Origin: Streptomyces celluloflavus
Lineage (GTDB): Bacteria; Actinomycetota; Actinomycetes; Streptomycetales; Streptomycetaceae
Assembly (NCBI GenBank): GCA_000720995.1
Contig: JOEL01000006.1
Coordinates: forward strand, 124,001 to 188,000
Direction of reading: 5' to 3'
DNA length: 64,000 nucleotides
The first letter of the stretch is position 1. Each line of letters begins with the position of its first letter. This document shows, piece after piece, positions 23,499 to 39,561 of this stretch. The notes under the pieces are model-generated. The model worked only from the letters and a program-made list of their open reading frames with translations, was not told where the DNA came from and ran no database searches. The translations under genes and the position numbers were made by a program.

Positions 23499-24563
23499 TC
23501 AGCCGATCTGCGCGCCGTAGGCCGCCAGGGCCGCCGGAACCGGCTGGAAGAAGGTCTCGCCGCCCGACGAGCAGTCGCCGCTGCCGCCGGAGGTGAGGCC
23601 GAGCGCGGTGCCGCCGTCGAAGAGCGCGCCGCCGCTGTCACCGGGCTCGGCGCAGACATCGGTCTGGATCAGACCGTTGACCGTGCCCTCCTGGTAGTTG
23701 ACGGTGGCGTTCAGCGCCTTGACGGTGCCGTCGTGCACCTGGCTGGTGCTGCCGCTGCGGGTCACGTGCTCGCCCACCGTGGCATCCCCGGCCTGGGTGA
23801 TCTGCTGGGTGCTGCCGTTGTAGAGGTCCACCTCGCTCGGGTGCGCGGTGTTCGCCGTGTACTTGGCGATGGAGTAGTCGTTGCCCGGGAACGTGGACTG
23901 GTCGGTGGTCGCGATCTCCGAGCCGCCCTGCTGGTCGGACCAGCTCTGCACGGCGTTGCCGCAGTGGCCGGCCGTCAGGAAGTACGGCTGGCCGTCCTTG
24001 ACGACGTTGAAGCCGAGCGAGCAGCGGGCGGTGCTGCCCCAGATCGCGTCGCCACCGGCGATGAGGGTCTTGAACTCGCCCTTGCTCTGGCGGAGTTCGG
24101 CCTTGTCGCCGAGGGCGCCCACCACCTTGGTGAGCTGGTTCAGCTCGGCGCCCCGGACCGTGCGGTCGGCGGTCACCAGAACCTTGTTGCTCCGCGGGTC
24201 GACCGACCAGGCCGTGCCGGGGATCGTCGCCTTCGCCTTCAGCGTCCGGCGGGCCGTGTCGAGCTGGGCGAGCGTGTGCTTGACGAGTCTCGCCTCCGCC
24301 CCCTTGGCCCGGACGGCCTTGGCGGCCGTCTCGTCCACGACGTTGACCACGAGCTTGTGGGCCTTGGCGTCATAGAACGAGCCGGCCGTACCGGTCTTGA
24401 ACTGGGCCGCCAGCGCGGTCGCCGCGGCGGGGGTCAGCCGGTCCGCGGTGGGGGCCGTCGCCGCCTGGGCGCTGGTCATGGTGAGAGTGGCGGTGGCGGC
24501 CAGGGCCAGCGCGCCCGCGCCGCCCAGGACGGCGCGCCGCTTGGGTATGCGTCGGTGCTTCAA
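23499..24563 (-). CDS. sprD: Streptogrisin D-like secreted serine protease
   Basis: The TTG at 24563, 7 bases after GGGAGG, starts MKHRRIPKRR, the usual streptogrisin opening. The 354-aa precursor has a signal peptide (to about residue 35, SAQA), an alpha-lytic-type propeptide (about 36-167) and a mature S1 protease from Ile168 (IAGGDAIWGS). The triad is His200 (LTAGHC), Asp229 (NDYS) and Ser310 (EPGDSGG). The mature sequence resembles streptogrisin D most closely, hence the symbol. It is exported, folds with its pro-region and self-cleaves. Confidence 0.9.
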   Translation of the reverse strand: MKHRRIPKRRAVLGGAGALALAATATLTMTSAQAATAPTADRLTPAAATALAAQFKTGTAGSFYDAKAHKLVVNVVDETAAKAVRAKGAEARLVKHTLAQLDTARRTLKAKATIPGTAWSVDPRSNKVLVTADRTVRGAELNQLTKVVGALGDKAELRQSKGEFKTLIAGGDAIWGSTARCSLGFNVVKDGQPYFLTAGHCGNAVQSWSDQQGGSEIATTDQSTFPGNDYSIAKYTANTAHPSEVDLYNGSTQQITQAGDATVGEHVTRSGSTSQVHDGTVKALNATVNYQEGTVNGLIQTDVCAEPGDSGGALFDGGTALGLTSGGSGDCSSGGETFFQPVPAALAAYGAQIG

Positions 24564-25222
24564 CTCAGAGCCTCCCGTGGGGGGATGGGCCCGCTCTGTG
24601 GGGAGATACGGACCCGGAGAGTGTGGGGAACTCGGGACACGGACGCATCCGCCCCGCGTCACAGCACCTCGGGGAGTCGCGTCCATGCCAACGTGCGGAC
24701 CGAGTATTCCCACCGCCCCAGTCGCGCACAAGACCGAATTCCGGTCTCCGGTACGGGAGTTGACCGTTCCGCCGGATTGCGGACACAGCGTGGTCCGCGC
24801 ACGTCGCGCCCGATCACGGACAGCGATGACCACAGGGGGCGCCCACGGGCACGCAGGGGGTGAGGACTACACCTGTCCGGAAACCATCCGCCTCATCCGG
24901 CCCCCGCGAATCCCCCACCACTCCCCCGGTTCCGTCCGCGACCACGGCCCACCGTCCGGCCCCGGACGGCGTGACCGCCATATCCGCCCACGTCAACGGC
25001 CCCGAAGTCCCCGCAGCCCCCACCGCAAGGCAACTGCCAGTGCTACCCGGACCGTGGGCTCAGCGGCGAAGTCCTCGGCTCCGGTGACGAGTTCGGCGGC
25101 GTCCCGACCGAGGCGCGTCATCTCGTGCGTCGCTCCATCCGGGTGGGCGCACCTCTGCCCAGCTACGGAGAGCTACTCCTCAGGAAGCGAACGGCCGGCC
25201 TCGGGGTGGTGCGGCAGCGCCC
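24564..25222. other. 660-bp gap upstream of the streptogrisin D-like gene
   Basis: This holds the protease promoter side and no firm gene. One plus-strand frame ending at 25271 reads protein-like (DEFGGVPTEARHLVRRSI, then PLPSYGELLLRKRT) but has no good start and runs into the HAD gene end. It may be a decayed gene fragment. Confidence 0.4.
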
Positions 25223-27276: not shown

Positions 27277-28182
27277 TCAGTAGACGCTCACGCCGTAGGC
27301 GCTGAGCGCCTCCGTGACCGGCTGGAAGAACGTCGTGCCGCCGGAGGTGCAGTCGCCGCTGCCGCCGGAGGTCAGGCCCAGGGCGGTGGTCCCGGAGTAG
27401 AGCGGGCCGCCGCTGTCGCCGGGTTCGGCGCAGACGGTGGTCTGGATCAGACCGGAGACGATGTCGCCGTTGCCGTAGTTGACGGTGGCGTTGAGCCCGG
27501 TGACCTTGCCGCTGTGGATGCCGGTGGTGGAGCCGCGGCGGGTGACCGTCTGGCCGACCGACGGGGTGCCGGCGCTGGTGATGTCCTGGCTGCCGACCGT
27601 CCCCTCGTGGCTGACGGAGGAGGTGTACTTCACGATGCCGTAGTCGTTGCCGGGGAAGCTGGATCCGGTCGTCGGGCCGATGCTCGTGGTGTGCGCCGCG
27701 CTGGTGTACCAGGGCGGGTTGCCCTCGGTGCAGTGACCGGCCGTCAGGAAGTAGTACGTGTTGCCGCTGCGGACGTTGAAGCCGAGCGAGCAGCGCCAGC
27801 TGGGGGCGTAGATGGCGTCGCCGCCGGAGATGAGGGTGCGCAGGGTGCCCGCGGTGCGCTGGATTTGTACGGCGCCCGCGTTGCCGCCCGCGGCCTGCTC
27901 GATCTTGGTGATCTGCTCCTGGGAGACGGTGCGGTCGGCCGTGACGACGAGAGTGTGCGACTTCTGGTCGACGACCCAGGCGGTGCCGGGGACATCCGCG
28001 GCGCGTACCGCGCTGTCGGCGGCGGAGAGCTGGGCGGCGCTGAACGTCTTGGTGGGGGACGGGTCCTGGGCGTTGGCGGTCGGGATGGCGACGGCTCCGA
28101 GGGCCACCAGTCCGGACGCCACGGCGAGCAGCCGGATGCGTCTGGTCACGCCGCTGCGGGGGGTGGTGCGCTCGTTCCTCAC
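27277..28182 (-). CDS. sprB: Streptogrisin B-like secreted serine protease
   Basis: The GTG at 28182 lies about 5 bases after GGAGGA and gives a 301-aa precursor: signal peptide to about residue 38 (TANA), propeptide 39-117, mature protease from Ile118 ([10 protein letters not shown]). The triad is His150, Asp180 and Ser257 ([12 protein letters not shown]). The mature part (184 aa, ending [11 protein letters not shown]) is very close to Streptomyces griseus protease B, a chymotrypsin-like enzyme. The pro-region is much shorter than that of the D-like neighbour at 23499. Confidence 0.92.
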
Positions 28183-28472
28183 GTGATTCCTCCGAGGGGA
28201 TCGATGGGCCGCCGGTGGGCGACCCGTGAGGCGCAGGCGAAGGGCATCCGGGAATCCGCACGTGTCATTTTCCGCATGCCCCTGACAAGCGCTGAGCGGG
28301 AGTCTCGGGGACGTCACCCCCTGGGCGCAAGAGGGCCACGCCCGTACACCCGGCCGGGCACCCGGATGTACGCACCCGGATGTACGCACCACTCATCCGG
28401 CCGCGCACGCCGCCGCCCCGGCAGCCCCGGCCGGGCTGCCGGGGCGGTGTCCTCGGCGGATGGTGGGTCGGA

Positions 28473-29264
28473 TCAGCGGGCGCGCAGGTCGCGCTCACCG
28501 GCCCGCAGCGCGAACGGCAGGGTGTTGCCGGGCGGCGGGAAGGGGCAGATGAAGTGGTCGGCGAAGGCGCAGGGCGGCAGCACGACACGGTTGAGATCGA
28601 CGGTGACGGTGCCGTCCTCGGCGGGCGCCGGGGGCCGCAGGAAGCGGAAGCGGTAGCTCTCGTCGCCGCTGGTGGTGTCGGCGAACACCGCCCACAGGGA
28701 GCCGTCGGCCTCGACCGCGGCCTGCACGGTGTGCTCGTCGCCGTCCAGCGTGAAGGCCAGTTCGCCGGCCAGGCCGAAGCCGCGCCGCTGTCCGTCGGCG
28801 TTGGGCACCCGGACGGTGCGCTCCTGCGGATACGGGCGGAAGAGGCCGGGCCGCACCCAGCGGGCGTCATACGGGTAGACCTCGATTCCGGTGAACGCGC
28901 GGCGGGTCGCGGCGTCCGGGTCGTAGTCGCGTACCGCCCACAGCCCCTCGCGGCGCAGCACCGGCAGCCGCCGCTCGCCCCACGCCACCCGGGCCCGTGC
29001 CGCCGCGCCGTCCTCGCCGAGCCGGACCTCGCCGGACGGCGGTGTGCCGTCGACGGTGAGCCCGTCGCCCGCGCCGGTCCGCAGCACGACCTGGTCGCCG
29101 TCCTCGGTCCAGCGGCCCGGCAGCCCCTCGATCCGGCCGTCGGGATGGTCGGCGAGCCAGTGGGTGCCGGTCAGGGCGAGCGGTCCGTACGGCCGGGAGA
29201 CCTTCGCGGTGCGCCGCTCGCGCCAGTCCTGCCACTCCTGAGGTGCTCGTGTACCGGTGCTCAT
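28473..29264 (-). CDS. DUF1684 family protein
   Basis: The 263-aa protein starts at the ATG at 29264, 5 bp after the monooxygenase stop, as the last gene of the eight-gene minus-strand run. Diagnostic DUF1684 sequence is present: the WRERR and LTGTHWLADHPDGRIEGLPG start, WAVRDYDPDAATRRAF, and the end motif LNRVVLPPCAFADHFICPFPPPGN with its cysteines. No signal peptide is seen. The family has no known biochemical role; here its coupling to flavin monooxygenases and an importer suggests a part in handling the imported compound. Confidence 0.87.
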   Translation of the reverse strand: MSTGTRAPQEWQDWRERRTAKVSRPYGPLALTGTHWLADHPDGRIEGLPGRWTEDGDQVVLRTGAGDGLTVDGTPPSGEVRLGEDGAAARARVAWGERRLPVLRREGLWAVRDYDPDAATRRAFTGIEVYPYDARWVRPGLFRPYPQERTVRVPNADGQRRGFGLAGELAFTLDGDEHTVQAAVEADGSLWAVFADTTSGDESYRFRFLRPPAPAEDGTVTVDLNRVVLPPCAFADHFICPFPPPGNTLPFALRAGERDLRAR

Positions 29265-29269
29265 GGCGG

Positions 29270-30733
29270 TCAACCCTTCTCGGCCGGGCGTACGGGATCC
29301 GGCAGTCCCAGATGGGAGCGCAGCGTCCGGCCGCGGTATTCCGTGCGGAACGCGCCGCGTTCCTGGAGGAGCGGTACGACGCGGTCGACGAAGTCGTCCA
29401 GGCCGCCGGGCGTCAGATGCGGGACGAGGATGAACCCGTCGGCGGCGTCGGTGCGCACGAAGGCGTCCATCTCCGCCGCGACGGCCGCCGGTGTGCCGAT
29501 GAAGGACTGCCGGCCGGTGGTCTCGATGACGGTTTCGCGCAGGGACAGGCCCTTGGCCCGGGAGAGCGCCCGCCACCGGTCGGCGACGGCCTTCGGATCG
29601 CCGTGCCGGACGCGGCCCTGCGCCAGCTCGCTACCGGGGTCCGGGTCGATGTCGGGCAGCGGGCCGTCGGGGTCGTAGGAGGACAGGTCGACGCCCCAGA
29701 TCTGCTCCGCGGCGAGCAGCGCGTTCTGCGGCGAGACCTGGCTGCGGCGGATCTCGGCGGCGTGCTCCTGGGCCTCGGCCGCGGTGTCGCCGAGGACGAC
29801 GGTGACACCCGGCATGATCTTGAGGTCGTCGGGCCGCCGGCCGTACGCCGCGAGCCGGCCCTTGACGTCGGCGTAGAAGGCGCGGCCGGCCTCCGGTCCG
29901 CTGTGCCGGGTGAAGATGACATCGGCGGACGAGGCGGCGAACTCCCGGCCCTCGGACGAGTCCCCGGCCTGGATGACGACCGGATGGCCCTGGGGGCTGC
30001 GCGGGACGGTGAACTCGCCGTGGATGTCGAAGTGCCGGCCGCGGTGCGCGAACGGCCGGGGCACGCCGTCGTCCGTCCAGGAGTCCCACAACTCCCGTGC
30101 GGTGGCGACGAATTCGACGGCCCGGGAATAGCGTTGGGCCCGGTCGAGATAGCCGCCGCGGCGGAAGTTCTCGCCGGTGAACGCGTCGGAGGTGGTGACG
30201 GCGTTCCAGGCGGCCCGGCCGCCGCTGAGGTGGTCGAGGGAGGCCAGCCGGCGGGCGAGTTCATAGGGCTCGTTGAAGGTGGTGTTCACGGTGGCGGCCA
30301 GGCCCAGCCGGTCGGTGACCGCCGCCAGGGCGTTCAGCACGGTGATCGACTCGGGCCTGCCGAGCACGTCGAGGTCGTGGATACGGCCCTTGTGCTCGCG
30401 CAGCCGCAGCCCCTCGGCGAGGAAGAAGAAGTCGAACAGGCCGCGCTCGGCGGTGTGGGCGAGGTGTTCGAACGAGGAGAAGGCGATCTGGCTCTTCGAC
30501 CGGTCATCGGCCCAGACGGTGGTGTTGTTGACACCGGGAAAGTGCGCCGCCAGGTGCATCTGTCTGCGGCCGTGCGGGGGCGCGGTGGTGCGCCCGTACG
30601 GGGAGGCGGCGGTGCGGCCGGGTCCGGTGGGTGCCGGGCCACCGGGAGCCGGTCGGCCGGAGGCCGGTCCGCCAGAGGCCGGTCCACTGGGCGTCGGCCC
30701 ACTGGGCGTCGGTCCGCTGGGGTTCGGGTTCAT
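29270..30733 (-). CDS. NtaA/SnaA/DszA-family flavin-dependent monooxygenase
   Basis: The ATG at 30733 sits 7 bases after GGAGG and gives 487 aa. An unusual tail (residues 1-57) repeats PSGPT/ASGGP units; the enzyme proper starts at about MHLAAHFPGVNN. Luciferase-like (LLM) TIM-barrel motifs follow: AERGLFDFFFLAEGL, NTTFNEPYELARRLASLDHLSGGRAAWNAVTT, and HPVVIQAGDSSEGREFAA. The family uses FMNH2 from a separate reductase to oxidise C-S, C-N or sulfone bonds (DszA, SnaA, NtaA, YtnJ). Its start overlaps the upstream LLM stop by one base (TGATG). Confidence 0.9.
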   Translation of the reverse strand: MNPNPSGPTPSGPTPSGPASGGPASGRPAPGGPAPTGPGRTAASPYGRTTAPPHGRRQMHLAAHFPGVNNTTVWADDRSKSQIAFSSFEHLAHTAERGLFDFFFLAEGLRLREHKGRIHDLDVLGRPESITVLNALAAVTDRLGLAATVNTTFNEPYELARRLASLDHLSGGRAAWNAVTTSDAFTGENFRRGGYLDRAQRYSRAVEFVATARELWDSWTDDGVPRPFAHRGRHFDIHGEFTVPRSPQGHPVVIQAGDSSEGREFAASSADVIFTRHSGPEAGRAFYADVKGRLAAYGRRPDDLKIMPGVTVVLGDTAAEAQEHAAEIRRSQVSPQNALLAAEQIWGVDLSSYDPDGPLPDIDPDPGSELAQGRVRHGDPKAVADRWRALSRAKGLSLRETVIETTGRQSFIGTPAAVAAEMDAFVRTDAADGFILVPHLTPGGLDDFVDRVVPLLQERGAFRTEYRGRTLRSHLGLPDPVRPAEKG

Positions 30734-31791
30734 CACGATGCCTCCCGGGCGAGGGCGTAGCGGTTGGCGGGGCGCGGCAGGCCGAGGTGCTCGCGCAGCG
30801 TGGCGCCGGGGTAGAAGCGGCGCAGCAGGCAGCGGTGCTGGAGCACCGGGACGGTGCCGTCGACGAGCAGGGCGAGGTCGCGCCCGGGGTCCGCGAACCG
30901 CAGGTGGAAGCCGTCGGCGGCGCCGTCCGCGTACCAGTCGCCGAGCAGTTCGGCGAGCCCGACGGCATCGCCCGAGCAGTGCAGTTCGACCGGCAGCGAG
31001 GCGAGGACGACCAACTGGCCGGGGTCGCGGCCGTGCGCGCGGGCGAGCTCGCGCAGTTCGGCGCGGACGGCACCGGCGCTCTGCGGGTCCGCGGCCCGGA
31101 CCAGCGCGACATCGGCGTACGCGGCGGCCACCTCCCGTACGGCCCGTTCGGCGCCGGCCGTCTCCCCGGTCGCGTCCACGACCGTGACGGGGTGGCCCTG
31201 CGGCGGCCGAGGGACGGTGGAGGGACCGCGGACGGAGAAGTGCGTACCGGCGAAGTCGACGTAGTGCAGTCGGTCCCGGTCGACGAAGCGGCCGGTCGCC
31301 CGGTCGCGGATCTCGGCGCCGTCCTCCCAGCTGTCCCACAGCCGCGCGGCGACGTCGGCTGCCTCGCCCGCCTCCCGCCACGCCGCGGCGGGCGGCTCGG
31401 CGGCCCGGCGGCCGAAGAGCGCGGCCTCGGCCTCGGTGGTGGACACCTCGGCCTGCCAGCCGGCCCGGCCGCGGCTGACCCAGTCCAGGGTGCTGACGGC
31501 GGTGGAGACGTGGAACGGCTCGGTGTGGGTGGTGGTGACGGCCGGGACCAGGCCGATCCGCTCGGTCGCGGGGGCGACGCGGGCCAGCACGGCGAGCGCG
31601 TCGAGGCCCGGCCGGGTCAGGCTGTCGCCGAGGGTGACGAAGTCGAGGACACCGCGCTCGGCGAGCCGCGCCAGGCGGACGAAATGCGCCGCGTCGTAGC
31701 GGTCGGTGCGGTCCGGCCGGTCCGCGCGGGCGGCCGGCCGCGGGTGCTCCAGCGCGACGGACAGGTGGAGGGGGCGGGGGGATGCGGACAT
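30733..31791 (-). CDS. LLM-class flavin-dependent oxidoreductase
   Basis: The 352-aa protein has the luciferase-like barrel: RYDAAHFVRLARLAERGVLDFVTLGDSL, TTHTEPFHVSTAVSTLDWVSRGRAGW, and the AALWDSW-like RLWDSWEDGAEIRD segment. The sequence DWVSRGRAGWQAEVS parallels the next enzyme in the operon, so the two are related but divergent. It starts 23 bp after the binding-protein stop. It probably acts in series or as a partner with the NtaA-type enzyme; substrate unknown. Confidence 0.87.
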   Translation of the reverse strand: MSASPRPLHLSVALEHPRPAARADRPDRTDRYDAAHFVRLARLAERGVLDFVTLGDSLTRPGLDALAVLARVAPATERIGLVPAVTTTHTEPFHVSTAVSTLDWVSRGRAGWQAEVSTTEAEAALFGRRAAEPPAAAWREAGEAADVAARLWDSWEDGAEIRDRATGRFVDRDRLHYVDFAGTHFSVRGPSTVPRPPQGHPVTVVDATGETAGAERAVREVAAAYADVALVRAADPQSAGAVRAELRELARAHGRDPGQLVVLASLPVELHCSGDAVGLAELLGDWYADGAADGFHLRFADPGRDLALLVDGTVPVLQHRCLLRRFYPGATLREHLGLPRPANRYALAREAS

Positions 31792-31814
31792 GGGTGAGCC
31801 TTCCGTGCGCCGGG

Positions 31815-32783
31815 TCAGTTCGCTGTCTTGGGCAGGCCGGGCGGGTTGATCCGCGAGGTCTTCAGGGCCTCGCCGCCGAGCCCCCAGCGCGCCAGCACCT
31901 TGCCGTACCGGCCGTCGTCGATGACCTTCCGGAGTGCGGCGGCATAGGCACCGACCAGGCCGCTGCCCTTCTTCGTGGTGGCGGCGATCTCGCCCTGGAG
32001 GCCGCGGCCGCCGCCGGAGAAGGTCCCGGCGACCTCGGTCAGGCCCGCGGTGCCGACGTGGTAGGCGACGGACGGGTTCGGTCCGAAGTAGCCGTCGATC
32101 CGGCCCGATTGCAGGGCGAGGTAGGTGTCGGAGCTCTTCTGGAAGTACTTGATGTCGACCGGTTTACGGCCGGCCTTCTCGTTCTCCTCGCTCCACTCGA
32201 CGAGGATCTTCTCCTGGTTGGTGCCGGAGCCGACCGCGACGGTCCGGCCCGCGACGTCCTTCGCGCCGCGCACCCGCCAGCCGCTGCCCTTCTTCGTCTC
32301 CAGCGCCAGCTCGTCCAGCCGGTAGGTCGCGAAGTCGTACTTCTCCTTGCGCTCCTCGGTGACGGTGACGTTGGAGAAGACCGCGTCGAGTCTGCCGCTG
32401 TCCAGGCCGACGAAGAGGTTCTCCCAGGACAGCGGGGTGAACTCGGCCTTCAGGCCGAGGGTGTCGGCGACGAGGGTGGCGAGGTCCTCCTCGACGCCGA
32501 TGAGGGTCCGGTCGTCGGAGGCGTAGAAGGTCAGCGGCGGTGAGCTGTCGGCGCCCACGCCGATGCGCAGCACACCGGCGTCCCGGACCCGGGCGGGCAC
32601 CAGGGCGGCGAGCGCCGGGTCCCGCTGCCCGCGGACGCGGTGCTGGTCGGGGCCGGTATTGATCTTCGACCCCGGGGGGCCCGCGGCGACGCTCCCGGTC
32701 ACCGCGTCACCGCTGCCGCAGGCGGTGAGCAGTACGGATCCGGCGGCGAGCGCGAGGGCGGCGGTCAGAGTGCGGCGGTTCAA
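31815..32783 (-). CDS. ABC transporter solute-binding lipoprotein (family 3)
   Basis: The TTG at 32783 is 7 bases after AGGAG and gives 322 aa. The lipoprotein signal ends in LTAC with Cys22. The mature part has the amino-acid-type binding fold: GVLRIGVGADSSPPLTFYA, FTPLSWENLFVGLDSGRLDAVFSNVTVTEERKEKYDF, DVAGRTVAVGSGTNQEK, LQSGRIDGYF. Family 3 proteins bind polar amino acids and derivatives, including cystine and S-modified cysteines. It is encoded 57 bp after its ATPase. Confidence 0.92.
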   Translation of the reverse strand: MNRRTLTAALALAAGSVLLTACGSGDAVTGSVAAGPPGSKINTGPDQHRVRGQRDPALAALVPARVRDAGVLRIGVGADSSPPLTFYASDDRTLIGVEEDLATLVADTLGLKAEFTPLSWENLFVGLDSGRLDAVFSNVTVTEERKEKYDFATYRLDELALETKKGSGWRVRGAKDVAGRTVAVGSGTNQEKILVEWSEENEKAGRKPVDIKYFQKSSDTYLALQSGRIDGYFGPNPSVAYHVGTAGLTEVAGTFSGGGRGLQGEIAATTKKGSGLVGAYAAALRKVIDDGRYGKVLARWGLGGEALKTSRINPPGLPKTAN

Positions 32784-32840
32784 CTCGGGGCTCCTGGGGA
32801 TGAGGGGGCCGGGGACGGCCGGACGGGGGACGGCGGCACG

Positions 32841-33638
32841 TCAGAGGACCTTGGACAGAAAGGACTTGGTGCGCTCGTGGCGGGGGTGGTCGAGGACCTG
32901 GCCGGGCGGCCCCTGTTCGACGATCCGGCCGCCGTCCATGAAGACGACGGTGTCGGCGACCTCGCGGGCGAAGCCGATCTCATGGGTGACGACGATCATG
33001 GTGGTGCCCTGCCGCGCCAGGTCCTTGATGACCGCCAGGACCTCGCCGACCAGCTCCGGGTCGAGGGCCGAGGTCGGCTCGTCGAAGAGCAGCAGCTTCG
33101 GTTCCAGGGCGAGCGCGCGGGCGATGGCGACCCGCTGCTGCTGACCGCCGGAGAGCTGCCGCGGATAGGCGTCGGCCTTGTCGGCGAGGCCCACCCGGTC
33201 CAGCAGGGCGCGCGCGGTCGCGAGGACGTCCTTCCGCGGGCGGCGCAGCGCGGCGAGGGGCGCCTCGGTGATGTTGTCCAGGACCGTCAGATGCGGGAAG
33301 AGGTTGAAGTTCTGGAAGACGAAGCCGATATGGGTGCGCTGCTTGAGGATCTCCCGTTCGCGCAGTTCGTAGAGCTTGTCGCCGGAGCGCCGGTAGCCGA
33401 CCAGCGCGCCGTCCACGCTGATCCGGCCGCTGTCGACCTTCTCCAGGTGGTTGATGGTGCGCAGCAGGGTGGACTTGCCGGAGCCGGAGGGGCCCAGGAC
33501 GACCGCGACCTCACCGGTGCGCACCTGGAGGTCGATACCGCGCAGCACCTCCAGCGCGCCGAAGCTCTTGTGGACGGCGCGGACCTCGACCATCGGCCGG
33601 GTTCCGGCGGGCGGCGCGGGGGTGGTGGCGGTGCTCAT
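32841..33638 (-). CDS. ABC transporter ATP-binding protein, polar amino acid type
   Basis: The 265-aa ATPase has Walker [11 protein letters not shown]-loop [17 protein letters not shown], signature [16 protein letters not shown], Walker [15 protein letters not shown] and the switch His in [14 protein letters not shown], the arrangement of GlnQ/HisP-type subunits. The ATG overlaps the stop of permease B by ATGA. It is the only ATPase at the locus, so it probably serves both permeases. Confidence 0.94.
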
Positions 33639-34534
33639 CGGGTGGCTCCCTTGGCGAAGTGGCGTTCGACGTAGTGCTGGAGGACGGAGAGCACGGTGGT
33701 CAGCAGGACGTACCAGGCGGTGGCCACCATCAGCAGCGGGACGACCCGGCCGTTCCGTCCGTAGATGACCTGGACCTGGTAGAAGAGTTCGCCGATCGCC
33801 ATGACGGAGACGATCGAGGTGCCCTTGAAGAGGGAGATGACCTCGTTGGCGGCGTTCGGCAGGATCGCGCGCATCGCCTGGGGCAGCACGATGCGGCGCA
33901 GCTGCCGCGGCCTGGGGATGCCCAGCGCGGCCGCGGCCTCCAACTGGCCGCCGTCCACGGCCAGTACCCCGCCGCGCACGATCTCCGCGGCGTACGCGGC
34001 CTGGTGCAGGGCGAGGCCGAGTACCGCCGCGCTCATCGCGCCGACCAGGCCCATGGTGTCGAAGGAGAAGAAGCCGGGGCCGAAGGGGATACCGAAGTCC
34101 AGGCGCTTGTAGAGGTAGGCGAGGTTGAACCAGAACAGCAGCTGGACGATGAGCGGGATGGAGCGGAAGGCCCAGATGTAGCCGAAGGCGACGGCCCTGA
34201 GGAAGGGGCTCGCGGACAGCCGCATGAAGGCCAGCACGATCCCGAGGGCGAAGCCGAGGACGGTGCCGTAGACGGTGAGCTGGAGGGTGACCCAGACCGC
34301 GCGGACGACGGTCTCCGCGGTGAAGAACTGCGCGAACACCCCCCATTCCCAGGCCGGGTTGGTGAGCAGGCCGTGCGCGAACTGGGCGAGCAGCACGGCC
34401 GTCACCACGATGGCGGCCCACCGCCAGGGGTGGCGTACGGGGACGACCTTCAGCGCCGCCGGGTCGTCGTCCGCCGGCGGCCCGGTCCGCCGCGGGGCGG
34501 TGCGGTCGAGGGGTGGATCACTGGTCAGCGGCAT
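33635..34534 (-). CDS. ABC transporter permease B, polar amino acid type
   Basis: The 299-aa permease has an extended cytoplasmic N-terminus (about 35 residues, ending [10 protein letters not shown]), four to five TM segments and the EAA loop [28 protein letters not shown] that contacts the ATPase. It overlaps the FAD/NAD(P)-binding gene by 17 bp and the ATPase by 4 bp. It is closely similar in plan to permease A at 36431, so the two probably form a heterodimer. Confidence 0.93.
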
Positions 34535-36434
34535 GGGAGTCCTCGGGAGTGGGTGCGGTGCGGACGGCGGCGGGGACCGGCGGGGCGGGGTGAGAACCGG
34601 CGGGCGGTGGGGTCCGGTCCCGCAGGAAGGTGAGCAGCGCCCGCGCGGTCGCGTCGTTCTGCCGGAAGGCGGGGGCATTGGTACGGGGGCGGGCGAAGGC
34701 GCCGCCGGAGCGGGCGTCGGTGTGCGGGCCGAGGGCGAAGCGGCGGGGGTGCGGGCGGCCCGCCCGGTCCAGGATCCGGCCGTCGGCGGCGGCCACGGCC
34801 AGCAGTCCGGCGGCCGTGGACGCGGCGCCTTCGGAGTGCAGTCCGCGCAGCAGGGCGTCCCGGGTGCGCGCGACCGTCGGTTCCGGCAGCCGCGCCTCCA
34901 CCAGCGCGCGGGCCTCGACCGACGCCCCCGGCACGCTGGCGCTCTCGGCGCGGAAGACCCCGCGCCGTTCGTCGGCGGTGACGGTGGTGTCCGCGCCGAG
35001 GAAGCGCACCACCCCGGCCCGGGAGAGCGCGAGCAGCTGGCGCAGCCGGGGGCCGGGCGGTCCGGAGGCGAGGTAGCTGAAGAAGCCGTGCCACCAGGGG
35101 CCGCGGTCGCCGATGCGGATCAGTTGCCCGTACACCGACAGCAGGGCGTGGAAGACCGCCAGGTCGGGGCTGTGCGCGGGGTCGTGGCGGCGGGCGAGAT
35201 CGGCCTCGATGTAGCGGCGCAACCCGTCTTGCAGGGCGTCGGCGTCGCGGTAGCGGACCCCGGCCAGCGGATGGTCCAGGGCGGCCAGGTCGAGGCGGTC
35301 GGCGGGGTCCGGGACCGAGGCGCCGACCAGGGCCTGGAGTGCGGCGCTGCCCGGGTCGGCGGCGGCGTACTTCTCCTCGAAGTCGGGCCAGTTGACGCGG
35401 GTGCGCTCCGGATGGGCGGTGAACAGCCGGTGGTAGTGGGCGAAGCCCAGTTCCTTGTCGATCAGCGGCCGGATGTCGCGCTCGAAGTCGATGCCGTCGG
35501 GCCGGGCGAGCAGCGCGTCGAGCTGCGCGGGCCCGAAGAAGCGGGGCAGCGGCGGCCGTTCGCCGGGCAGCTCGTAGCCGATCTTGGAGTGGTAGGGCAC
35601 TCCGCGCCGCGATCCGACGTGCAGGACGGGTTCGCGCCCCGAGGGCCGGTAGGTCAGCTCGCCGCCGGCGCCGGTCGTGTAGCTGCCGCCGCGCCCCTCG
35701 GTGAGCAGCACCATCAGGTCGACGAAGGCCAGCCCGAAGCCGCGGACGAGCACCGGCTCGCCGGGGCGCAGCGCGGTGAGATCGCTGTCGGCGGTGAAGG
35801 CGGGCGGCAGATGGGTCAGCCCGTGCCGGTCGGCGAAGGCGGTCAGCGCCCGCTGCTCGGGCGGCGGGGTCGACTCCAGATGGCCGAGGGTGAGCACGAC
35901 GAGGTCGGCGACGAGCGGTGTGGGGCACCCCGCCAGCCACACCTGTTGCCGTCCGTCGCGCGCTCCGGCGAGGCGTACGGCGGTGCGCCGGTGTTCGTGG
36001 ACGGCGATGCGCGGGGGCAGCGCGGCCACCGACCGCTCGTACACCCAGCTCAGATACGCGCTCTGCAGCCGCCGGGCGGCGAAGTCCTGCGGTCCCAGGG
36101 CCGCGAGGTCCGCGGCGAGGCCGGGTGCGACGCGTATCCCGCCGTCGCGCACCGCGCGGGCCCAGGCGGCGAGCGAGGGGCCGGGCCGCACCGGGCCCTC
36201 CTGCCGCACGGTCTCGTCGGTGAACATGGTGACGTCCTCGGCCAGGGAGTTCATCCACAGCAGCGGGGACTGGTCGTGGCGCCAGATGCGGCCGCCGCCG
36301 GGCGGATGCGGATCGACGAGATGCAGGTCCAGCGGCCGGTCGCCGTACAGTTCGGCGGCGTTGGCGGCGATGCGCTCGACCAGTCCGGTGCCGCGCGGCC
36401 CGGCTCCCACGATCACCACGGAGGGCCTCGTCAT
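34518..36434 (-). CDS. FAD/NAD(P)-binding protein (NAD_binding_9 type) inside an ABC operon
   Basis: The 638-aa protein starts with a dinucleotide fold, PSVVIVGAGPRGTGLVERIA, and has GGRIWRHDQSPLLWMNSLAEDV and FGLAFVDLMVLLTEGRGG further in, typical of PF13454-like proteins sometimes labelled as hydroxyacylglutathione- or adenylate-associated. It is sandwiched between the two permease genes (4-bp overlap with A, 17-bp with B), so it must be made with the transporter. It might oxidise the substrate or feed electrons to the flavin monooxygenases; neither is shown. Confidence 0.82.
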   Translation of the reverse strand: MTRPSVVIVGAGPRGTGLVERIAANAAELYGDRPLDLHLVDPHPPGGGRIWRHDQSPLLWMNSLAEDVTMFTDETVRQEGPVRPGPSLAAWARAVRDGGIRVAPGLAADLAALGPQDFAARRLQSAYLSWVYERSVAALPPRIAVHEHRRTAVRLAGARDGRQQVWLAGCPTPLVADLVVLTLGHLESTPPPEQRALTAFADRHGLTHLPPAFTADSDLTALRPGEPVLVRGFGLAFVDLMVLLTEGRGGSYTTGAGGELTYRPSGREPVLHVGSRRGVPYHSKIGYELPGERPPLPRFFGPAQLDALLARPDGIDFERDIRPLIDKELGFAHYHRLFTAHPERTRVNWPDFEEKYAAADPGSAALQALVGASVPDPADRLDLAALDHPLAGVRYRDADALQDGLRRYIEADLARRHDPAHSPDLAVFHALLSVYGQLIRIGDRGPWWHGFFSYLASGPPGPRLRQLLALSRAGVVRFLGADTTVTADERRGVFRAESASVPGASVEARALVEARLPEPTVARTRDALLRGLHSEGAASTAAGLLAVAAADGRILDRAGRPHPRRFALGPHTDARSGGAFARPRTNAPAFRQNDATARALLTFLRDRTPPPAGSHPAPPVPAAVRTAPTPEDSHAADQ

Positions 36435-37345
36435 CGGGCACCGGCCGTACCGCGCGCGTAGTGCCGCTCGACGTAGTGCTGGCCGACGCCGAGCACCGAG
36501 GTGACCACGACGTACCAGATGGTGGCGACCAGCAGCAGCGGGATGACCTGGTAGGTGCGGTGGTAGACCAGCTGGACGGAGTAGAGCAGGTCCTGTACGG
36601 CGATCACGCTGACGATGGAGGTGCCCTTGAGCGTGCCGATCAGCATGTTGCCGGCCGGTGGCACGATCGCCCGCATCGCCTGCGGCAGCACGATGCGGCG
36701 CAGCCGCCGCCAGGCGCCGAGCCCGAGCGCCTGGGCGGCCTCCAGCTGGCCCTTCTCGACGGAGAGGAGGCCGCCGCGGACGACCTCGGCGGCGTACGCG
36801 GCCTCGTGCAGGGTGAGGCCGATGATGGCGATGGTGACCGGGCCGAGCAGGTTCACGGTCTTGACGGTGAGGAGTTCCGGGCCGAACGGGATGCCGATGC
36901 CGAGTTGCGGATAGAGCGCGCCGATGTTGAACCAGAACAGCAGCTGGACCAGGACCGGCATCGAGCGGAAGAGCCAGATGTAGCCCCAACTGACGCTCCG
37001 CAGCACCTTGTTGGACGACATCCGCAGCACTGCCAGCAGGGTGCCCAGCACAAAGCCGAGCGCCGTCACCAGCACGGTCAGCCACAGCGTGAGCCCGAGG
37101 CCGCGCAGTACGGCGGTGGTGGTGAAGTACTCGCCGACGACGCCCCACTGGAAGGCGTCGTTGCGGACGAGGGAGTTGACGTCCATGGCGAGCAGCAGCA
37201 CCACGGCGGCGGCGGTCCACTGGCCGGTGCGGCGCACGGGGACGACCTTGAGGGCGTCCGCGGCGGGTGGTGCGCCAGGAGGGTCGAGGGGGCGGTGATC
37301 CGGTGACGCGGACGGATCGGACAACACTGCGTCGTTCACAGGCAT
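36431..37345 (-). CDS. ABC transporter permease A, polar amino acid type
   Basis: The 304-aa permease is first in the minus-strand operon. After a 40-residue Pro-rich tail ending VVPVRRTGQW come TM segments and the EAA loop [28 protein letters not shown]. The segments [15 protein letters not shown] and [16 protein letters not shown] parallel permease B almost residue for residue. The ATG at 37345 has GGAG about 10 bases upstream. Its stop overlaps the FAD protein start by ATGA. Confidence 0.93.
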   Translation of the reverse strand: MPVNDAVLSDPSASPDHRPLDPPGAPPAADALKVVPVRRTGQWTAAAVVLLLAMDVNSLVRNDAFQWGVVGEYFTTTAVLRGLGLTLWLTVLVTALGFVLGTLLAVLRMSSNKVLRSVSWGYIWLFRSMPVLVQLLFWFNIGALYPQLGIGIPFGPELLTVKTVNLLGPVTIAIIGLTLHEAAYAAEVVRGGLLSVEKGQLEAAQALGLGAWRRLRRIVLPQAMRAIVPPAGNMLIGTLKGTSIVSVIAVQDLLYSVQLVYHRTYQVIPLLLVATIWYVVVTSVLGVGQHYVERHYARGTAGAR

Positions 37346-37455
37346 GCGCGAAGGCTCCGTGGATTCAACGATCTGACACGGGAGTTGAGCGCCTTCACAC
37401 AGGCGGAACGGGTCGCGCCCCTCAGCACGACCGCCCCTTGAGGCTATGAGGGGCA

Positions 37456-37485
37456 GGCTATGGGGTGAACACGCCTCATTGTCAA
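37456..37485 (-). promoter_or_regulatory. Candidate promoter of the minus-strand transporter operon
   Basis: On the minus strand TTGACA (37485-37480) is followed 18 bp later by ATAGCC (37461-37456), about 110 bp before the permease A start. The -35 is perfect and the -10 is weak. Confidence 0.35.
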
Positions 37486-37536
37486 TGCCGTCCACACTGT
37501 GAGCGAGGGAGCGCTGCGCGGTTGACGTGGAAACGG

Positions 37537-37629
37537 ATGCCTGTTCCACTTGGTCGCATGTATGCATGGCAGCGGCTGGTCACCCGCGACCACATCGACC
37601 TCGGTCGTGTGTGGTCGTCTTCCTGTTGA
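37537..37629 (+). CDS. Putative Cys-ending leader peptide of sulfur-type operons
   Basis: A 30-codon frame (ATG at 37537; a second ATG at 37558) ends RDHIDLGRVWSSSC and then TGA. The pattern H-x-D-L-x-R-V-x-S...C matches short leader peptides found upstream of sulfur-uptake and LLM-monooxygenase operons in streptomycetes. They are thought to sense cysteinyl-tRNA by ribosome stalling or coupling. It reads toward the plus-strand genes (LLM remnant, GNAT, binding protein), 263 bp upstream of them. Too short for ordinary gene callers; the identification rests on the motif. Confidence 0.7.
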   Translation: MPVPLGRMYAWQRLVTRDHIDLGRVWSSSC

Positions 37630-37892
37630 GCTGACGCCCTGCCCTGAAGCCCGCCGCCGATAAGGCCGGGCCGTTTCGCGGTTCTCCTCTCCCGTTACCG
37701 CGCGCCTTCACACTTCGCGCCGCCACTCGGCGCACCCCTCCCCTCGCCTGTCCCGGAACCCGGGCGCCCCGGCGTCCCCCGGTTCCTCCTTGTCCACCCT
37801 GTCCACGGCTGTTCCCGCCTCCACGGGTCGCTGTTCGCTGTTCACGTTCACTGTTTCCCCGTTCCGCCGGCACGCTCGAAGAAGGGCGCGGT

Positions 37893-38093
37893 ATGCGCTT
37901 CGGCGTCTTGACCTTGACCGACCACGTCCCGGACCCACCGTCCGGGCACCGCTTCACCCCGTACGCCACCGGTCCGTACGCGCCCGGTCCGTGCGGACCC
38001 GCCCCGCGCGTATGCCGCCGCCCGGCCGCCGGACTCGCGCTATCCACAAGGGAGTTGGGCTCCCCCGCGGCCGACGCCGGGGCGGTCCGGTGA
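37893..38093 (+). pseudogene. Truncated LLM monooxygenase remnant coupled to GNAT
   Basis: A 66-codon frame begins MRFGVLTLTDHVPDPPSGHR, the exact N-terminal style of LLM flavin oxidoreductases (first barrel strand), after GAAGAAGG. It then loses all family sequence and becomes Pro/Gly-rich. Its TGA overlaps the GTG of the GNAT gene (GTGA). The simplest reading is an internal deletion that removed about 300 codons while keeping start, frame and coupling. It could alternatively be a leader-like small protein. Confidence 0.55.
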
Positions 38094-38596
38094 CCGGCGC
38101 GCCCCGGCCGCCGTACGCGGCCGCCCCGACCGTCCTGCACACCACCGTCACCGATCCGCTCGCCCGCCCACTGCTGGACGAACTCACCCACGAGTACCGC
38201 ACCCGGTACGAGAAGCCCGTCGATCTGAGCCTGGAGTACCCGCCCGAGGAGTTCACCCCGCCGCGGGGCGCGTTCCTGCTGCTCCTGGCGGACGGCGGTC
38301 CGGTCGCCGGCGGTGCGTACCGCCGCTACGACGCGCACACCGCCGAGTTCAAACGGATCTGGACGCACTCCGCGCACCGCCGCCGCGGTCTGGCCCGGCG
38401 GGTGCTGGACGTCCTGGAACGGGACGCCGCCGACCGCGGCTACACCCGTGTCTACCTCACGACCGGCCCCCGCCAGCCCGAGGCCAAGGGGCTCTATCTC
38501 GCCGCGGGCTACCGCCCGTTGTTCGACCCGACCGCCGACCCGGAGACGATCGGCCCGCTGCCGTTCGAGAAGCACCTGGAGATCCCCCGCCCATGA
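38090..38596 (+). CDS. GNAT-family N-acetyltransferase
   Basis: The GTG at 38090 overlaps the upstream stop (GTGA) and gives 168 aa. GNAT motifs are clear: GGAYRRYDAHTAEFKRIWTHSAHRRRGLARRVLDVLE with the acetyl-CoA loop HRRRGLA, then YTRVYLTTGPRQPEAKGLYLAAGY. Its stop overlaps the next binding-protein start by ATGA, tying it to solute import. By analogy with SnaA/YtmI in the B. subtilis S-alkylcysteine pathway it may acetylate an imported S-modified cysteine; that is inference. Confidence 0.85.
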   Translation: MTGAPRPPYAAAPTVLHTTVTDPLARPLLDELTHEYRTRYEKPVDLSLEYPPEEFTPPRGAFLLLLADGGPVAGGAYRRYDAHTAEFKRIWTHSAHRRRGLARRVLDVLERDAADRGYTRVYLTTGPRQPEAKGLYLAAGYRPLFDPTADPETIGPLPFEKHLEIPRP

Positions 38597-39561
38597 CCAC
38601 CACCACGCCCCGCGACCGGGCGGCGCGCGCCCCGCGGCCCCGCACCACCGCGCCGCGCGCCGCCGCCCTCCTCGCCACCGCCGTCCTGGCGCTCACCGCC
38701 TGCGGCTCGGGCGGTGCGGCCGGCGCGGCGGGACCGGCCGCCGCCGAGGTCCCGACGACGGACGTGGTCTCCGGCGTCACGGAGGACCCGGCCGCCGCGA
38801 AACTGCTGCCCGCGGACGTCCGCGCCCGGGGCACCCTCGCCCTGGCCGCCAGCGTCGGCACCCCGCCGGGCGCCACCTATCTCCCCGACGGCACGACCGT
38901 GGCCGGCCAGGACATCGACTTCGCGGACGCGGTCGGCAAGGTCCTCGGCCTGAAGCTCACCCGCGAGGTGGCGAGCTTCGAGGCGATCCTGCCCGCCCTC
39001 GACAGCGGCAAGTACGACCTGGCCACCGGCAACTTCGGCGTCACCGAGGAGCGCCGCAAGACCATCGACTTCGTCACGTACATCAACGACGGCCAGGGCT
39101 TCGCGGTCCGCGCGGACAGCCCGCTGAAGAAGGTCACCGCGCTGCCGCAGCTGTGCGGACTGACCGTCGCCACCGGCGCCGGCACCACCTTCGAGGCGAC
39201 GCTGGAGGACAACCGGCACCGGTGCCGGGACGCCGGAAAGCCGCCGTACGACGTCAAGACCTACGCCGACCAGGGCGCACTGTGGATCTCGCTGCAGCAG
39301 GGGCGCAGCGATGTGGTGATGAGCACCATCAACGGGCTGCGCTACGCCGTGCGGCAGCAGCAGGGCCTGCGGTTCCTCAACGAGTTCAAGCGGCTGGACG
39401 TCGGCTTCGCGTTCAAGAAGGGCTCCCCGCTGGCGCCCGCCGTCCAGGCCGCGGTCAACCGGCTGAAGGCGGACGGCACCTACGACCGGATCCTGAAGAA
39501 GTGGGGCACCGGCGCCTCGGCCGTCACCACCTCGCGGATCAGCCCGCCGGAGATCCGCTGA
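38593..39561 (+). CDS. Second ABC solute-binding lipoprotein (family 3)
   Basis: The 322-aa precursor has a lipobox LTAC (Cys37) after a longer basic N-terminus. The mature part shows the family-3 fold: GTLALAASVGTPPGATYLPDG, GQDIDFADAVGKVLGL, LPALDSGKYDLATGNFGVTEERRKTIDF, VATGAGTTFEATLED. Two mature cysteines (about 197 and 216) could form a disulfide. No second permease or ATPase follows, so it probably docks with the divergent importer, giving one importer with two receptors. Confidence 0.9.
   Translation: MTTTTPRDRAARAPRPRTTAPRAAALLATAVLALTACGSGGAAGAAGPAAAEVPTTDVVSGVTEDPAAAKLLPADVRARGTLALAASVGTPPGATYLPDGTTVAGQDIDFADAVGKVLGLKLTREVASFEAILPALDSGKYDLATGNFGVTEERRKTIDFVTYINDGQGFAVRADSPLKKVTALPQLCGLTVATGAGTTFEATLEDNRHRCRDAGKPPYDVKTYADQGALWISLQQGRSDVVMSTINGLRYAVRQQQGLRFLNEFKRLDVGFAFKKGSPLAPAVQAAVNRLKADGTYDRILKKWGTGASAVTTSRISPPEIR

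Follow-up and report, generated by a model that had tools for sequence, protein, structure and literature searches.

Which task is served by the divergent gene island at positions 28,473 to 39,561 of a 64,000-nucleotide stretch of Streptomyces celluloflavus DNA (GCA_000720995.1, contig JOEL01000006.1, 124,001 to 188,000; G000:C6:124001-188000, the whole of which is called the window)? The island encodes two family-3 substrate-binding proteins (SBP-A and SBP-B), two permeases (PermA and PermB), an ATP-binding cassette (ABC) ATPase, two luciferase-like monooxygenases (LLM1 and LLM2), a flavin adenine dinucleotide (FAD)-binding protein, a GNAT acetyltransferase and a DUF1684 protein. A sequence-only reading had taken it for a counterpart of the Bacillus subtilis ytmI-ytnM locus, which imports and breaks down S-modified cysteines. 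Our analysis makes sulfur scavenging under cysteine control very likely. We further lean towards the combined statement that the island, built in part from non-orthologous components, salvages sulfur from cysteine S-conjugates by oxidative C-S cleavage under cysteine control. Among the titles listed in literature searches, no paper on this island was found.

Reading frames were fixed by codon-position GC content and hidden Markov model scans of the window proteins. The ten genes listed at the outset are real, and their coordinates and families held (Table 1). On the minus strand the order is PermA, FAD protein, PermB, ATPase, SBP-B, LLM1, LLM2 and DUF1684. On the plus strand a short leader open reading frame (ORF), absent from the sequence-only reading, is followed by GNAT and SBP-A. 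An ORF of 638 residues at 34525-36441 was rejected as lying in the wrong frame; the FAD protein read in the right frame likewise has 638 residues. As the sequence-only reading had stated, neither an amidohydrolase nor a flavin kinase was seen among the proteins scanned between 28.4 and 39.6 kb.

The leader ORF sits between the two divergent operons and resembles actinobacterial Cys leader peptides. It scored below the cut-offs of both leader models, NF042936 (E = 1.2e-4, 21.6 bits, cut-off 45) and NF042934 (E = 0.034, 13.8 bits, cut-off 27), and it is taken as real because it is conserved. Indeed, it is kept in the window and in 40/41 syntenic relatives (FAD protein identity at least 57%), the exception being L070, and it was found in 79 of the best 80 loci from named genomes. 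Its Cys (TGT), Gly (GGT) and second Val (GTG) codons are fixed in 41/41, while the Thr, Arg and Ser codons vary. It is, as far as the alignments tell, a conserved short ORF with a terminal Cys ahead of sulfur genes, its translation being putative. In the window, the TTGACG located 31 nucleotides before the leader ATG suggests a leaderless transcript. Cys-responsive leaderless ORFs are known in mycobacteria (cited in the available part of PMC9031893). The mycobacterial leaders (NF042936 Ms4527A; Canestrari 2020) share with that of the island a leaderless-type short ORF, a Cys near the end and sulfur genes behind. In contrast to their polycysteine run, the island leader has a single conserved Cys; it also heads a divergent locus and scores below the model cut-off.

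Other leaders of this genome were examined through the seven best of 14 NF042934 matches. Five of them precede plainly sulfur-related genes: cysteine dioxygenase, cysteine synthase (by eye, itself preceded by a small CysO-like protein), sulfite and phosphoadenosine phosphosulfate (PAPS) reductases, an ssu set made of an ABC permease and an SsuD-like LLM, and rhodanese. The two others precede a flavin reductase and an SDF symporter, which fit the sulfur theme by inference, as flavin supply and TcyP-like uptake, respectively. A DNA pattern describing leaders of this type was recovered in 66/150 relatives with 0 control matches. A second leader copy of this genome (L211, G000:C18:65200-72300) heads an SsuD-like LLM beginning MPVEFLGIAATNDGSE. 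L070 and L078 have the same gene, placed between their leader and GNAT.

The FAD protein was searched for in 150 relatives. A match was obtained in 89, many being paralogs of about 40% identity, and 60 stretches of at most 20 kb were taken for comparison. The relatives with at least 57% identity (n = 41) are syntenic and mostly adjoin SepF and an acyl-CoA dehydrogenase. The scan of named genomes covered the best 80 loci. Every one of them belongs to Streptomyces, Kitasatospora or Actinacidiphila, and no statement on taxonomic range follows from such a selection. Neighbours were counted in 66 of these 80 loci, the other 14 having too little flank; genes were called with a simple caller based on third-position GC and with tblastn, and absences are upper bounds. 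Near the FAD gene we found LLM1 in 58 loci, LLM2 in 53, DUF1684 in 50, the ATPase in 41, PermA and SBP-A in 39 each, PermB in 26, SBP-B in 22 and GNAT in 9. The comparison of neighbourhoods asked for by the sequence-only reading thus reveals a recurrent gene group, and because of this recurrence the grouping is not due to chance. The commonest set (12/66) consisted of ATPase, DUF1684, LLM1, LLM2, PermA and SBP-A. The second (10/66) had DUF1684, LLM1 and LLM2 beside the FAD gene and no transporter gene, and the third (9/66) had everything except GNAT. Parts therefore drop out in modules, with the FAD protein and the LLM pair as the core. A sample of 296 genomes spread across the class contained 40 with a FAD match of E no higher than 1e-90. 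Eight contexts from other families were compared, and LLM1 and LLM2 lie near the FAD gene in four of them (L072, L201, L204, L205); in L205 the genes around it encode an SsuD-like LLM, a SufS-like cysteine desulfurase and a glutathione S-transferase-like protein. In several relatives, a protein of about 400 residues with a very Cys-rich tail, absent from the window, lies between leader and SepF on the opposite strand.

The sequence-only reading had counted two catalytic flavin monooxygenases of the LLM kind. LLM2 scores above the TIGR03860 cut-off (406.1 against 279.7 bits), LLM1 below it (223.5 bits). The best match of LLM2 in the PDB is YtnJ (CmoJ; E = 1.3e-82), followed by 7e36_B (NtfO2). 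With LLM1, 3sdo and YtnJ are top by score and the full-length match is 7e36_A (NtfO1), over residues 31-345. NtfO1-NtfO2 is a heterodimer with flavin mononucleotide (FMN) docked in NtfO2, according to the available part of PMC8027225. At the NtfO2 FMN positions LLM2 carries T120 (35/36), Y142 (35/36) and Q195 (33/36), H151 being mostly Arg (29/36). In LLM1 the Thr is replaced by V116 (35/40) and the Tyr by W138 (35/40), and position 205 is V, I, A, L or F in the 37/40 shown. LLM1 and LLM2 look like one heterodimer in which LLM1 would be the degenerate partner, not a second catalytic monooxygenase. As in 7E36, one FMN-type chain goes together with one shorter degenerate chain; the Ntf pair acts on a polyketide substrate, whereas LLM1/LLM2 stand in the island context. 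Because LLM1 has lost FMN residues, a CmoO-like sulfoxidase is missing from the island.

On PDB similarity, the predicted function of LLM2 is that of a CmoJ-type C-S monooxygenase. YtnJ/CmoJ cleaves alkylcysteine sulfoxides (excerpt of PMC10863075). Membership of LLM2 in TIGR03860, which holds nitrilotriacetate (NTA) monooxygenase, and the presence of 3sdo and 5dqp among the PDB matches would also suit an island degrading an aminopolycarboxylate or another non-sulfur compound, such as NTA or ethylenediaminetetraacetate, as carbon or nitrogen source. The Cys leader with its sulfur regulon, YtnJ as the nearest PDB match and the cysteine desulfurase beside the FAD gene in L205 make this very improbable. 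Sulfur-linked import and breakdown, as originally claimed, is supported by the Cys leader, by the sulfur genes behind other leaders and by the proximity of LLM2 to YtnJ/CmoJ. In Rhodococcus IGTS8, NtaA-like proteins (one being ScmK), TcyC and FliY/TcyA appear as probable sulfur acquisition proteins in a table seen in the excerpt of PMC8557817.

Concerning transport, the best or near-best curated models of the island parts were cystine ones, and no part passed a cystine-family cut-off. In SBP-A the Arg that holds the ligand carboxylate is kept (R154, 30/30) and the ammonium-Asp position is T245 (30/30); SBP-B likewise has R145 (22/22) and P235 (22/22). These positions were read from four aligned solved chains (6h30, 4zv1, 5t0w and 4f3p), all carrying the Asp, which we take to bind the alpha-ammonium group of the ligand. 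The lack of this residue leads to the idea of an N-blocked ligand, hinting that the ligands of both SBPs may be N-acylated. Neither observation supports a one-to-one match with the ytm set. A sulfonate (taurine) substrate, raised by SsuABC-like genes in L070, was set aside because the island SBPs belong to family 3.

These results bear on whether the island is the Streptomyces version of ytm/cmo, in which free S-alkylcysteines would be imported and acetylated by GNAT, one LLM would sulfoxidise and the other cleave, with the FAD protein and DUF1684 as accessories. With B. subtilis ytmI-ytnM (snaA-tcyJKLMN-cmoO/J) the island shares gene kinds in one locus: an amino-acid type ABC importer, an LLM near CmoJ/YtnJ and, in some loci, GNAT. 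GNAT adjoins the FAD gene in other families too (L072, L201, L207), and the SsuD-like LLM of L070 and L078 could be the sulfoxidase. However, the locus showed neither a second active LLM of the CmoO kind nor a glutaredoxin, an amidohydrolase or a flavin kinase, and the island adds the FAD monooxygenase, DUF1684 and a predicted regulation by the Cys leader. The degenerate LLM1, the rarity of GNAT near the FAD gene, the lost ammonium site of the SBPs and the transporter-free core also speak against this version, the FAD gene being in every locus by construction. It appears unlikely to us, and equivalence with ytm is partly refuted: the gene kinds and the closeness of LLM2 to YtnJ stand, whereas LLM1 and the SBP site do not correspond and GNAT is present in the window but in few of the other loci. 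A different chemistry or substrate, which the sequence-only reading had also considered plausible, proved to be its better half. The S-(2-succino)cysteine operon yxe/scm of B. subtilis shares an NtaA-like monooxygenase, GNAT and an ABC importer, as far as the excerpt of PMC9706529 goes; in comparison, no deacetylase was seen in the island, and the FAD protein, LLM1 and DUF1684 are extra.

The sole PDB relative of the FAD protein is 8cp2 (E = 1.1e-92), an L-aspartate N-hydroxylase (excerpt of PMC10404684) of the CreE/FzmM/PcxL group. Homology covers residues 5-602 and the catalytic Asn62 and Arg13 are kept; within the island clade, R14 and N62 are kept in 43/43. In contrast, the substrate-site residues R409, R412 and N413 of 8CP2 are replaced by L432 (43/43), Y435 (42/43) and G436 (38/43), and the R416 equivalent, position 439, is V, I, T or P in the 36/43 shown. 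Of ten paralogs, seven keep Arg at three aspartate-site positions and three likewise lack the arginines. In the tree, the FAD proteins of the island form a single clade (93/91), whereas 8cp2 groups, on a 100/100 branch among the paralogs, with the second FAD copy of this genome (L074, G000:C5:24196-26067), whose product is possibly a nitrosuccinate-type enzyme. Alignment and tree place the island protein in a clade of its own among L-aspartate N-hydroxylase kin, with most of the aspartate site lost.

This relationship and the kept catalytic N62 and R14 are what an N-oxygenase would show. Such an enzyme would oxidise a sulfur amino acid at its amino group, giving an oxime or a nitro group and labilising the C-S bond by beta-elimination. 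The substrate of the LLM pair would then be either a second compound or the thiol part set free. The separation of the clade from the 8cp2 group, the lost aspartate-site arginines and SBPs that fit badly with a free amine substrate render this unlikely.

According to the oxidative salvage scheme that we prefer, and which in its full mechanistic form seems less likely than not, the family-3 ABC modules would import a carboxylated cysteine S-conjugate. Its amine would probably be blocked, as in a mercapturate (N-acetylcysteine S-conjugate), or be acetylated inside by GNAT. The FAD monooxygenase would then oxygenate the conjugate, most likely at sulfur, as a stand-in for CmoO, and the LLM1/LLM2 heterodimer, in which LLM2 would bind FMN, would break the C-S bond of the sulfoxide as CmoJ does. 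A reductase encoded at another genomic site would provide the reduced flavin, and FMNH2 could come from the flavin reductase that follows one of the other leaders. In B. subtilis, CmoO sulfoxidises and CmoJ cleaves N-acetyl-S-alkylcysteine to a sulfenic acid needing reduction, in the accessible text of PMC10863075. In the island the resulting cysteine sulfenic acid may be reduced by the Cx7C protein DUF1684, whose C232 and C240 are each conserved in over 95% of 35 aligned sequences. A haloarchaeal DUF1684 Cx7C protein was assigned to a thiol relay group in the excerpt of PMC9426492, and a literature search on DUF1684 yielded one paper; the island protein is a candidate thiol relay or sulfenic acid reductase. 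Finally, low Cys-tRNA would stall the ribosome at the leader Cys codon and expression would rise.

Several observations weigh against the salvage scheme. By model score the leader is not significant genome-wide (NF042936, E = 0.0089; NF042934, E = 1.78), and below-cut-off matches also occur in control genomes (NF042936 in 5/14, NF042934 in 10/14). It occurs without SBP-A or GNAT in 34/113 loci, 23 of these 34 being without an ORF within 700 nucleotides on the leader strand, and in G060 (L228), which has no island-type FAD gene, it still adjoins SepF and acyl-CoA dehydrogenase. The controlled gene is thus not always evident, and the leader either outlives its genes or does something else. As for the enzymes, the characterised relative of the FAD protein is an N-hydroxylase and not an S-oxygenase, and residue 440 of the island protein, adjoining the lost R416 position, is Arg in 36/43. 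GNAT and a deacetylase are mostly missing nearby. In four of the eight other-family contexts (L202, L203, L208, L209, with L202 and L209 short) the FAD gene stands without the other genes.

The region upstream of the minus operon was examined in an alignment of relatives, which holds 30 of 37 extracted sequences; L036, L069, L078 and L079 were left out, none being recognisable by pattern, and L076 was omitted from alignment A3 owing to an N gap. Two hairpins were found in the 5' untranslated region (5'UTR): GCUGAGGGGC at 37417-37426, and GUGUGAAGGC (37391-37400) pairing with GCCUUCGCAU, which covers the Shine-Dalgarno sequence and AUG of PermA. The start-site hairpin is absent from the RNAalifold consensus and was named by hand and then counted, which favours that structure. 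With this in mind, 91.2% of the cells of the two hairpins are paired, against 34-49% in slid controls, and both sides changed in 16 cells, compared to a shuffled mean of 6.1 (0/500 shuffles). Covariation is modest, since the majority of pairs change little or on a single side. A model, R1, built on the RNAalifold structure, gave one significant match in this genome, the 5'UTR itself (E = 1.2e-16, against 0.99 for the second-best), and no Rfam family matched it at E up to 10. The TTGACA is present in 38/41 upstream regions, the exceptions being L036 and variant boxes.

A repeat, CCTTCACAC, is real: its upstream copy occurs in 69/113 loci, its downstream copy in 65/113 and both in 53/113, compared with 4/5650 and 24/5650 in shuffled sequences. 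Pairing of the leader transcript with the divergent mRNA was considered, and over all loci own pairs beat swapped pairs (36 loci, p = 0.0004). It was rejected because a duplex-energy test was negative and because own pairs were no better within clades (p = 0.70, 0.90 and 1.0). A more elaborate proposal holds that the island is a dedicated mercapturate salvage system, in which an N-hydroxylase lineage has turned S-oxygenase, a cofactor-less LLM paralog supports the cleaving subunit, the Cx7C DUF1684 recycles sulfenic acid and the leader-transcript repeat, complementary to the start-site-sequestering hairpin, switches the divergent operon on in trans. As a whole it strikes us as distinctly unlikely.

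Table 1. Features of the island and its surroundings (window positions unless a locus is named)
Feature	Position	Strand	Evidence
DUF1684 protein, 263 residues	28473..29264	-	PF07920, E = 3.8e-39; C-terminal Cx7C pair C232/C240
LLM2, NtaA/DmoA-family FMN-dependent monooxygenase, candidate C-S cleaving subunit	29270..~30733 (start uncertain)	-	TIGR03860
LLM1, degenerate NtaA-type protein, candidate cofactor-less LLM2 partner	30733..31791	-	TIGR03860 below cut-off
SBP-B, family-3 substrate-binding lipoprotein	31815..32783	-	PF00497, E = 2e-24
ABC ATPase, TcyN-like below cut-off	32841..33638	-	PF00005; NF008428, 322 bits against cut-off 406
PermB, polar-amino-acid type permease	33635..34534	-	PF00528; cystine and ectoine permease models below cut-off
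FAD/NAD(P)-binding class B-type monooxygenase, candidate S- or N-oxygenase	34518..36434	-	PF13454, E = 2.5e-38
PermA, polar-amino-acid type permease	36431..37345	-	PF00528; EhuC and cystine permease models below cut-off
5'UTR of minus operon with two hairpins	37343..37455	-	30-sequence alignment
TTGACA, putative -35 of minus operon	37480..37485	-	Sequence; recurs in upstream regions of relatives
TTGACG, putative -35 of leaderless promoter, 31 nucleotides 5' of leader ATG	37522..37527	+	Conserved in alignment rows of relatives
Leader peptide ORF MYAWQRLVTRDHIDLGRVWSSSC, 23 codons, Cys codon TGT	37558..37629	+	NF042936/NF042934 below cut-off; conservation
Second copy of GCGCCTTCACAC	37702..37713	+	Direct repeat of 37389-37400
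GNAT acetyltransferase, optional part	~38090..38596	+	PF00583
SBP-A, family-3 substrate-binding lipoprotein	38593..39561	+	PF00497, E = 9e-27
Cys-rich-tail protein	L037 11656-12861; L044 15365-16615

The scanned neighbours of the island are an S1 protease (27277-28392), SepF, an acyl-CoA dehydrogenase and an MFS protein. The protease is one of two alpha-lytic-protease-like S1 proteases with a prodomain on the minus strand of the window, the other lying at 23499-24833, and S1 protease relatives come after DUF1684 in L035 and L049.

Overall, four poorly understood families meet in the island: a CreE-like clade of FAD proteins, a pair of LLMs of which one is degenerate, DUF1684, and Cys leaders of an orphan-like kind. 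What would unite them is one task, the recovery of sulfur from cysteine conjugates in soil actinomycetes. Mycothiol detoxification releases mercapturates. If the reading of the SBP binding sites is true, this detoxification would be linked to sulfur recycling. The leader and the 5'UTR could readily be turned into a reporter that signals a shortage of cysteine in Streptomyces.

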